Notes under the pieces: generated by a model
What the model was told of the DNA's origin: nothing
The model's database searches: none
What the model saw: the letters and a program-made list of their open reading frames with translations, nothing else
Position numbers and translations under genes: made by a program
Part shown: piece by piece, positions 55,634 to 59,083 of the stretch
How positions within the stretch are numbered: the stretch's first letter is position 1
How the letters are laid out: each line of letters begins with the position of its first letter
Assembly: GCF_010586825.1 (NCBI RefSeq)
Contig: NZ_JAAAGB010000005.1
Coordinates: 186,001 to 250,000, forward strand
Source: Draconibacterium mangrovi
GTDB taxonomy: Bacteria; Bacteroidota; Bacteroidia; Bacteroidales; Prolixibacteraceae
Direction: 5' to 3'
DNA length: 64,000 nt

Positions 55634-55703
55634 TGGAAAATTTGGATATAAAAATATTTTCCACTTGCTTTACTGGAAAATATATTCATTAGAATATTTT
55701 CCT
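55634..55703. promoter_or_regulatory. Two tandem 30-bp palindromes, probable TetR operator
   Basis: TGGAAAAT starts at 55634 and 55674, and its reverse complement ATTTTCC(A) ends at 55663 and 55702. Half-sites recur every 20 bp in alternating orientation, giving two 30-bp palindromes 40 bp apart. The inner pair ATATTTTCCA (55654-55663) and TGGAAAATAT (55674-55683) is a perfect 10-bp inverted repeat; the final half-site lacks its last A. The array ends 6 nt before the TetR start codon, so autoregulation is likely (inference). Confidence 0.75.
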
Positions 55704-55708
55704 GCTCA

Positions 55709-56344
55709 ATGGATGTAAGAGAAAAAATATTGTCAACGGCAACAGAAGAGTTTTTAAAAAATGGCATAAAATGTATGTCGGTGCAAAAGCTTGTGGAGCC
55801 ACTCGGAATTTCAACAAAAACATTTTACAAGTATTTCAAGAATAAAGAGGAACTACTTGAGGAGGTTTTGACATCGCTTTACATTCAGCAGTTTAAGGTA
55901 TTAAAAGAAGACTCGAACACCGAGAATCCGATTCATCTGTTATTGCAAATCTGGTCGACGGCTTTTCTGCGCGAGAATAATGTGAATTATCAATTCTACA
56001 ACGATTTGCAGTACTACTATCCTGAAGTTGAAAGCAGAGTTGAAAGAAAGGTGGGAGAGGATTTCTGGACAGAGTTTCGGCAGCTGATAAACAGGGGAAT
56101 TGAAAATGATCTATTTCTGAAAAACAGCCAGCCGGATGTGGTATTGGAAGCCATTTCTGTGCTGTACTCCGTTGCTGTAAAAACCGAACAATTCGGGAAG
56201 TTTGGATTGTCTCCTAAAATCATTTTTCAGAATACCCTGGCTGTTCTTATTCGCGGAATTTGCACTGCCAAAGGTCTTGATGATTTCGAAAAATATAATC
56301 AATCAATTTTTGCTAATAACCAGAGTTCGATAACATCAAATTGA
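55709..56344 (+). CDS. TetR/AcrR family transcriptional regulator
   Basis: 211 aa. The N-terminal HTH of TetR proteins covers about 5-50: EKILSTATEEFLKNG, then MSVQKLVEPLGISTKTFYKYFKNKEELLEEVL, where the recognition helix is ISTKTFYKYF (about 33-43). The C-terminal all-helical half binds an unknown ligand. The start at 55709 is directly after the palindromic array at 55634-55703, which leaves almost no leader. It lies between the esterase/MBL unit and the small-protein-GH3 pair (24 nt to the next start), so it may control either. No efflux pump gene, the most common TetR target, is nearby. Confidence 0.9.
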   Translation: MDVREKILSTATEEFLKNGIKCMSVQKLVEPLGISTKTFYKYFKNKEELLEEVLTSLYIQQFKVLKEDSNTENPIHLLLQIWSTAFLRENNVNYQFYNDLQYYYPEVESRVERKVGEDFWTEFRQLINRGIENDLFLKNSQPDVVLEAISVLYSVAVKTEQFGKFGLSPKIIFQNTLAVLIRGICTAKGLDDFEKYNQSIFANNQSSITSN

Positions 56345-56368: not shown

Positions 56369-56740
56369 ATGAAAACGATGAAAATTCTTTTGACGTCTTT
56401 ATTTTTTCTTGCCGTTACATTCGCAACAATGGCACAGGATACAACTACTGATTATTTTGCCGGCGACTGGAACGTTATGGTGAAAGGTACTCCAAACGGT
56501 GATGCGGAAATGGTGATGCATCTGGAGCGGGTTGATGGAAAACTTGTTGGCGAAATGCGGGTGGAAGGTCTTGATCCATCGAAGTTTCGTGATGTTACGG
56601 AAAAAGAAACGGAAATTACAGTTTCTTATTTCGCGATGGGATACGATATAAGTATAAACCTGAAAAAGGTTGATGAGAATAACCTGAAAGGAAGTTTATT
56701 GGGCATGTTTGATGCAACCGGCGAAAGAAAATTGGACTAG
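56369..56740 (+). CDS. Small secreted protein of unknown function
   Basis: 123 aa with a Sec signal peptide (about 1-22, cleavage after TMA). The mature part of about 100 residues is predicted beta-rich: YFAGDWNVMVKGTPNGDAEMVM, then LVGEMRVEG, and finally LKGSLLGMFDATGERK. This pattern (a W near the start, alternating strands) recalls small lipocalin-like or calycin proteins seen in Bacteroidetes, but I cannot assign a family. It lies between tetR (24 nt) and the BglX-like GH3 (39 nt), so all three are probably one transcript. No catalytic residues are evident. Confidence 0.7.
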   Translation: MKTMKILLTSLFFLAVTFATMAQDTTTDYFAGDWNVMVKGTPNGDAEMVMHLERVDGKLVGEMRVEGLDPSKFRDVTEKETEITVSYFAMGYDISINLKKVDENNLKGSLLGMFDATGERKLD

Positions 56741-56779: not shown

Positions 56780-59083
56780 ATGAGAAAAATAGCACAAAAG
56801 CGTGTTGCTCACATTTTAAAAACAGTACTTTTCTCTGTACTTCTCCTATCGTTTCTGACTGGGGCGGCCCAGGATACGGAAATGGATAAATTTGTTGACG
56901 ACCTGATGTCGAAAATGACCTTGCAGGAAAAACTGGGACAGATCAATTTATCATCCGGAAATGTCGGTGCTATTCTTGCTGGCGGCGGAGGTCTGGAGGA
57001 ATCCATAAAGAAAGGCGAAATCGGTGCAACCGGCGGTTTTACGTTTGGAGCCATAAAAGGTTCGCAGGAGGCTGCTCAGGAATCGCGTTTAAAAATCCCC
57101 TTACTTATTGGTTTAGACGTGATTCATGGTCACACAACAATTTTTCCAATCCCGCTGGGTTTGTCGTGTACCTGGAATACACAGCTGATCGAAAAAAGTG
57201 CGCGTATTGCCGCTACCGAAGCCAGTGCTTCAGGAGTTTGCTGGACCTACTCGCCAATGGTTGACATTTCACGTGATCCACGTTGGGGACGCGTTTCTGA
57301 AGGATCGGGCGAAGATCCATGGTGGGGGGCGCAGGTAGCAAAAGCCATGATTCGTGGTTACCAGGGCGACGACCTTTCAAAAAGTAATACGATAATGGCT
57401 TGTGTGAAACACTTTGCGTTATATGGTGCTGCCGAAGCCGGTCGCGATTATAACACGGTTGACATGGGACATTTGACCATGTTCAATCATTATTTGCCGC
57501 CTTACAAAGCCGCTTTCGATGAAGGAGCAGGTAGTGCGATGTCGTCATTTAATGTAATCGACAATGTGCCGGCAACAGGAAACAAGTGGTTAATGACAGA
57601 GGTACTTCGAAATCAGTGGGAATTTGATGGTTTTGTAGTTACTGATTATACCGCTATAAACGAAATGACTAACCATGGTTTGGGAGATTTAAAAGCGGTT
57701 TCCGCTCTTGCATTAAAAGCCGGAATCGACATGGATATGCAAGGTGATGGCTTTATCGGAACATTGGAAGAATCATTAAATGATGGTTCGGTTACAATGG
57801 CTGATATTGACAGGGCTTGTAAATTGGTTTTGGAAGCCAAATACAAACTGGGATTGTTTGATAATCCTTACAACTATTTGGATGAAAGTCGTGCCGCAAA
57901 AGAATTGTTAGCGCCGGAACATTTGGCTGCTGCTCGCGAAATTGCAGCTCATTCAATGGTTCTGTTGAAAAACGAGAACCAAACTTTACCACTGAGAAAG
58001 GAAGGAAAAATAGCAGTTGTAGGGCCACTGGCTACTGCCAAAGCTGATTTGTTGGGCGCCTGGGTGATGGTTCGCGAAGAAAGTGTGATCTCTTCAGTTG
58101 TTGAAGGAATTAAAAATGTTGGTGGCGAGAACGTGGAAGTGGTTACCGCAAAAGGAGCTAATATAACCGATGATCCTTATTTGAAACAAGGTTTGGTATC
58201 GCCGTACGCAGCTTACATGGGAGTAAAAATGGAAGAAGAAACCCGCACTGCGCAGGAAATGATTGATGAGGCACTGGAAGTTTCGTCGGACGCAGATGTA
58301 ATTGTTGCGGTTTTGGGCGAGTCGGCTGCCATGTCAGGAGAAGCTTCAAGCCGTGCCGATATTAGCATTCCCGAAAGTCAGCGCGATTTGTTAAAGGCGC
58401 TATTAAAAACAGAAAAGCCGGTGGTTTTGGTTTTGGTAAATGGTCGTCCGCTTACCATTCAGTGGGAAAGCGAAAATGTACCTGCAATTCTGGAAGCCTG
58501 GGCACCGGGCTCAGCGGGCGGAAATGCCATTGCAGATGTATTGTTTGGCGACTACAATCCTGCAGGAAAACTGACCATGACCTTCCCGCGCAGTGTAGGA
58601 CAAATTCCGGTTTATTACAATTCTTTAAATACAGGCCGCCCTTTCGATGCGGTTAATAAGTTTACATCGAAATACCTCGATATTCCAAATGATCCACTCT
58701 TTCCTTTCGGTTATGGTTTAAGTTATACAACCTTTGAGTACGGTGATATTCGTTTGAACAAAACAGCGCTTAATGGTGAGGAAAAATTGCTCGCAACAGT
58801 AACGTTAACCAATACCGGCGACAAAGCAGGCGAGGAAGTTGTTCAATTGTATATTGGCGATCCGGTGGCCAGCATTTCGCGCCCGGTAAAAGAACTGAAA
58901 AACTTTCAGAAAGTGATGCTTCAGCCGGGTGAGAAAAAAGATGTAACTTTTGAAGTTACCACAGAAGATTTAAAATTCTATAATTCTGATCTGAATTATG
59001 ATTGGGAATCTGGCGAATTTAAGCTATTCATTGGAACATCATCGGCTGATGTTAAGACATCATCTTTTGTTTGGAATAAATAA
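56780..59083 (+). CDS. bglX: GH3 beta-glucosidase, BglX-like
   Basis: 767 aa with a Sec signal peptide (about 1-31). The TIM barrel (about 36-360) opens with FVDDLMSKMTLQEKLGQI and has KHF at 210-212 and the nucleophile D289 in VVTDYTAI. The alpha/beta domain (about 385-620) contains the SGEASSR motif that carries the acid/base in BglX-type enzymes. A fibronectin III-like domain (about 665-760) ends the chain. It is a different GH3 branch from the two at the left end of the window. Expected action is exo-hydrolysis of beta-linked gluco-oligosaccharides in the periplasm; it could supply the beta-glucosidase missing from the xyloglucan locus. A terminator follows. Confidence 0.92.
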   Translation: MRKIAQKRVAHILKTVLFSVLLLSFLTGAAQDTEMDKFVDDLMSKMTLQEKLGQINLSSGNVGAILAGGGGLEESIKKGEIGATGGFTFGAIKGSQEAAQESRLKIPLLIGLDVIHGHTTIFPIPLGLSCTWNTQLIEKSARIAATEASASGVCWTYSPMVDISRDPRWGRVSEGSGEDPWWGAQVAKAMIRGYQGDDLSKSNTIMACVKHFALYGAAEAGRDYNTVDMGHLTMFNHYLPPYKAAFDEGAGSAMSSFNVIDNVPATGNKWLMTEVLRNQWEFDGFVVTDYTAINEMTNHGLGDLKAVSALALKAGIDMDMQGDGFIGTLEESLNDGSVTMADIDRACKLVLEAKYKLGLFDNPYNYLDESRAAKELLAPEHLAAAREIAAHSMVLLKNENQTLPLRKEGKIAVVGPLATAKADLLGAWVMVREESVISSVVEGIKNVGGENVEVVTAKGANITDDPYLKQGLVSPYAAYMGVKMEEETRTAQEMIDEALEVSSDADVIVAVLGESAAMSGEASSRADISIPESQRDLLKALLKTEKPVVLVLVNGRPLTIQWESENVPAILEAWAPGSAGGNAIADVLFGDYNPAGKLTMTFPRSVGQIPVYYNSLNTGRPFDAVNKFTSKYLDIPNDPLFPFGYGLSYTTFEYGDIRLNKTALNGEEKLLATVTLTNTGDKAGEEVVQLYIGDPVASISRPVKELKNFQKVMLQPGEKKDVTFEVTTEDLKFYNSDLNYDWESGEFKLFIGTSSADVKTSSFVWNK

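Follow-up and report, generated by a model that had tools for sequence, protein, structure and literature searches.

A tandem pair of 28-bp palindromes before a tetR gene of Draconibacterium mangrovi as a probable autoregulatory double operator

Results

The window, that is, the whole 64,000-nucleotide stretch of Draconibacterium mangrovi DNA that was analyzed, contains a tetR-family gene preceded by two palindromes and followed by genes for a 123-aa protein and a GH3 beta-glucosidase (Table 1). The regulator carries an N-terminal PF00440 helix-turn-helix (HTH) domain (E 1.8e-11, 44 bits against the Pfam cut-off of 24), with its recognition helix at about residues 36-42 (S-T-K-T-F-Y-K). An AlphaFold2 model (mean pLDDT 83.8) has the all-helical TetR fold, and its best PDB matches belong to the TetR family. 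The 123-aa gene lies 24 nt behind tetR, and its product has no Pfam or NCBIfam match.

Table 1. Features of the tetR locus, in window positions.
Feature	Position	Strand	Description
Operator palindrome 1 (putative)	55635..55662	+	GGAAAAT-N14-ATTTTCC, GGAAAATTTGGATATAAAAATATTTTCC
TTTG, candidate -33 element	55641..55644	+	20 bp before the -7 element
Linker between palindromes	55663..55674	+	12 bp, ACTTGCTTTACT
Degenerate -7 element	55665..55672	+	TTGCTTTA, 4 of the 6 fixed letters of TAnnTTTG
Operator palindrome 2 (putative)	55675..55702	+	GGAAAAT-N14-ATTTTCC, GGAAAATATATTCATTAGAATATTTTCC; over predicted transcription start and leader
tetR-family repressor	55709..56344	+	211 aa; Pfam PF00440 and fold
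123-aa protein	56369..56740	+	apparent N-terminal signal sequence; next gene after tetR
GH3 beta-glucosidase (BglX-like)	56780..59083	+	after the 123-aa gene; likely operon member

Both palindromes are perfect and 28 bp long, "palindrome" referring to the seven outer bases per arm (GGAAAAT/ATTTTCC). The forward half-sites lie at 55635-55641 and 55675-55681 and the reverse ones at 55656-55662 and 55696-55702. A sequence-only reading of this DNA had described half-sites alternating every 20 bp in two 30-bp palindromes 40 bp apart, with 6 nt left between the last of them and the ATG. The four half-sites, the 40 bp between palindrome centers and the 6 nt to the tetR start codon were all confirmed, but the spacing is not a uniform 20 bp, the half-site centers being 21, 19 and 21 bp apart; the reverse half-sites start 2 nt past 55654 and 55694, the positions given in that reading; and the exact unit is 28 bp. 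Extending palindrome 2 to 30 bp would set T against T at the outermost position (55674/55703), a mismatch. When up to three mismatches were tolerated, the full pattern had a single match in the window, and none of 100 dinucleotide shuffles contained it.

Close homologues of the TetR occur at five further places in the same genus (83% identity twice, 54% twice in one genome, and 48%) and in a second family, where Mucilaginibacter is a named relative, at 37-40% protein identity. Conservation upstream of orthologues, a check named beforehand, was found in both families: each of the clade's 16 readable loci, with proteins as little as 37% identical, has the tandem 28-bp pair immediately ahead of the start codon. 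The array ends 2-13 nt from the start codon across these loci, with the starts of G1020, G1071, G014 and G1008 uncertain. Every palindrome is 28 bp long (one apparent 27 is a tie that also has a 28-bp form), GGAAAAT is nearly invariant over the 64 half-sites, and the A/T-rich N14 interior varies freely. The linker measures 12 bp in six loci, 11 bp in seven, and 10, 9 and 17 bp in the others. A seventeenth locus (L128, G957:C247) was left out of the 16 because it is cut by the contig start; its first palindrome is missing and the contig begins with AGATGTGTATAAGAGACAG, which resembles leftover Nextera adapter.

A blind pattern search of 37 genomes of the genus and 395 of the phylum returned only tetR-linked places and one stray match (G010), with 0 control matches. 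The 395 phylum genomes yielded one new genome, in which the site lies 9 nt before a TetR of the same clade. In these searches the array is restricted to the tetR locus of this TetR clade. The sequence-only reading had proposed a genome scan with the palindrome for defining a regulon, and no wider one emerged: among the matches listed for 15 array-bearing genomes, exact 28-mers occur at the tetR locus only, and a wider regulon was rejected on that ground. One-mismatch matches were near the reversed-control level in most genomes and above it in G014 and G000. Because the exact 28-mers listed sit at tetR only, the regulator appears to be local and autoregulatory.

The gene for the 123-aa protein is kept behind tetR in all loci of the genus. 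Efflux genes, as in AcrR/MtrR-like systems, were not found in the putatively regulated operon, where the downstream genes encode the 123-aa protein with GH3 or GH106, or GH20. One genome has two copies of the array with different downstream genes. Genome G013 carries two tetR plus 123-aa cassettes (L097 and L098), one followed by a GH106 rhamnosidase and the other by an enzyme that is GH3-like by sequence.

The primary promoter consensus of Bacteroidota is TAnnTTTG at -7 with TTTG near -33 (PMC7366714). Perfect TAnnTTTG elements are present in 6 of the 16 arrays. In four of them (G1002, G936, G1020 and G1071) the element starts 2 bp after palindrome 1, and the degenerate TTGCTTTA of the window lies in the same register; in G885 and G1023 it falls inside the left arm of palindrome 2, which there deviates from the operator consensus (GGAAAATTA). 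Where the linker lacks TAnnTTTG, TATATTTG/A is found in the left arm of palindrome 2 instead, and G159 has TATATTTA in that arm. The left arm of palindrome 1 reads GGAAAATTTG and hence contains TTTG, which is conserved at the candidate -33 position in the six loci of the genus. Matches to a sigma-70-type promoter were at chance level only. About 36 nt separate the end of the window's -7 element from the ATG; with transcription predicted to start at about 55676-55679, the leader would measure about 30 nt. For comparison, leaders in B. thetaiotaomicron have a median length of 32 nt, and about 3.7% are shorter than 10 nt (PMC7366714).

The near absence of a leader had earlier suggested leaderless translation. 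We found this unsupported, because the position of the -7 element predicts a leader of some 30 nt; what the 6 nt measure is only the gap between operator and ATG. A leaderless mRNA would have its -7 element in TATTTTCC at the right end of palindrome 2. The array does end near the start codon in all loci, and in several distant homologues TAnnTTTG ends 4-7 nt before the start. However, TATTTTCC shares just 4 of the 6 letters of TAnnTTTG and is itself fixed by the operator, and the perfect elements of the six homologues lie in the linker or the left arm of palindrome 2, so that a leaderless tetR mRNA in the window is unlikely.

Upstream of 171 more distant TetR homologues, 28-bp palindromes are in excess (65 loci against 9.6 ± 2.9 in shuffles, z 19), with a sharp peak at 28 bp that concentric lengths of 24-32 bp follow. 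TAnnTTTG most often lies 1-5 or 14-19 bp behind the palindrome. The GGAAAAT tandem array was not found among distant homologues, where single 28-bp palindromes with other half-sites were found instead. When half-sites were counted with a consensus that leaves positions 2 and 6 free (5.6 of 185 loci expected from mononucleotide shuffles), they fell into classes matching residues 36 and 37 of the regulator. The TK class has GGAAAAT, position 2 being G and position 6 being A in 56 of 56 half-sites. The KK class has mostly GGAAACT (C at position 6 in 163 and G at position 2 in 135 of 180 half-sites), and the KR class has GAAAACT (A at position 2 in 53 of 58). In the tree, TK is one clade (support 99). 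An independent-pairs test has just 3 changes at residue 37 and 1 at residue 36 to draw on, too few for significance. Since the residue 36/37 classes are largely clades, the residue-to-base match is a correlation, confounded with phylogeny.

The palindromes might also be the site of another regulator with the adjacent TetR a bystander, and a neighboring site alone is no proof of TetR binding. This seems very unlikely, given that in both families, and beside differing neighboring genes, the array occurs with this TetR clade alone, and that half-site class follows recognition-helix class.

The classes also differ in their neighbors: at KK and KR loci the next gene is TolC-type-like in 14 of the 16 read (three tested by Pfam) and a second TetR in the other two, whereas GH20, GH3 or GH106 genes follow at the TK loci read. 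Some KK-class tetR mRNAs (L017, L025, L031 and L034) may be leaderless or nearly so, because these are loci at which TAnnTTTG ends 4-7 nt from the likely start codon. The genome of the window itself encodes a KK-class paralogue (L206, G000:C11:1275439-1276039) with two GGAAACT-type 28-mers 88 bp apart, and about ten relatives have similar far pairs at 79-103 bp.

Discussion

We read the array as an autoregulatory double operator of the adjacent TetR repressor, blocking the promoter that tetR would share with its downstream genes, and give this reading a probability of roughly 0.85. That a TetR operator lies here had been proposed before, and conservation upstream of orthologues together with absence of the array elsewhere in the genomes supports it. 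The repressor would very probably switch off its own operon at the array. It would bind both palindromes, probably as two dimers on each, palindrome 1 covering the promoter spacer and -33 side and palindrome 2 the transcription start and leader. Because the palindromes overlie these parts, exclusion of RNA polymerase from the promoter of the tetR, 123-aa protein and GH3 beta-glucosidase genes would be the simplest reading of repression, and a ligand would presumably release the repressor. The direct block that the sequence-only reading had offered as its other option fits the position of the -7 element relative to the palindromes. Counting against our reading are the degenerate -7 element of the window and the downstream cargo, which differs between families.

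That palindrome 2 acts in RNA, as a leader hairpin controlling tetR translation or termination, is hardly credible: it lies mostly within the predicted leader and could form a 9-bp stem, but its folding does not stand out from that of shuffles (z -1.16, with 24 of 200 shuffles folding as well), no terminator was found at the locus, and palindrome 1, which matches it in half-sites and length, precedes the predicted start and so would be absent from the transcript.

Under the double-operator reading, the number of dimers can be judged from site length. The sites of TetR-family proteins binding as two dimers measure 22-32 bp (28 bp for QacR), those of single-dimer binders 15-17 bp (PMC4150764). 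Because 28 bp fits the former class, two dimers per palindrome are likely on length alone. The array would then take up to four, against the two cooperating dimers proposed in the sequence-only reading. The inner self-symmetry of single half-sites equals the column expectation, with sequence favoring neither dimer number. The helical phasing first seen between the palindromes is not strictly kept over the 16 loci, and since linker length ranges between 9 and 17 bp, cooperation between palindromes through fixed phasing is not indicated.

More tentatively, and at somewhat less than even odds, TetR regulators of Bacteroidota would share a fixed 28-bp operator and a code in which the choice of T or K at residue 36 determines whether half-site position 6 is A or C, and the choice of K or R at residue 37 whether position 2 is G or A. 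The clade of the window would then be a branch with an altered code, an operator duplicated around the -7 element and a shift from efflux operons to glycoside hydrolases. If the match is causal, the operators of many uncharacterized Bacteroidota TetR regulators would be predictable from the recognition helix, and with just two residues and two bases involved it can be tested with these. We found no described TetR operator in Bacteroidota in the literature searched, and the array offers, for a TetR regulator beside glycosidase genes in this phylum, a map of operator and promoter that can be tested.

Among known systems, the nearest solved folds are fatty-acid and steroid TetR regulators such as FadR (Bacillus, Thermus) and KstR2, with TM-scores of about 0.6-0.7 and 14-22% identity, which does not imply likeness of ligand. 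QacR, CprB and the other TetR proteins that bind 22-32 bp as a pair of dimers (PMC4150764) have the TetR fold and N-terminal HTH in common with the window's TetR, and the QacR site is 28 bp long, as are all palindromes of the clade. Unlike QacR and CprB, the clade has two tandem palindromes around one -7 element, with other half-site letters and other cargo; dimer number is compared here by site length only. The KK and KR TetR/AcrR-type repressors of Bacteroidota TolC-type efflux operons resemble the clade in having a 28-bp palindrome in the same register, with an AAA core, shortly before a -7 element. They differ in their half-sites (GGAAACT or GAAAACT), in having mostly one palindrome at the promoter and in their outer-membrane efflux cargo, as against glycoside hydrolases. 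The array is thus very probably a TetR self-repression device of an already known kind, and its wider operator geometry and the match to the recognition helix are the most interesting part.
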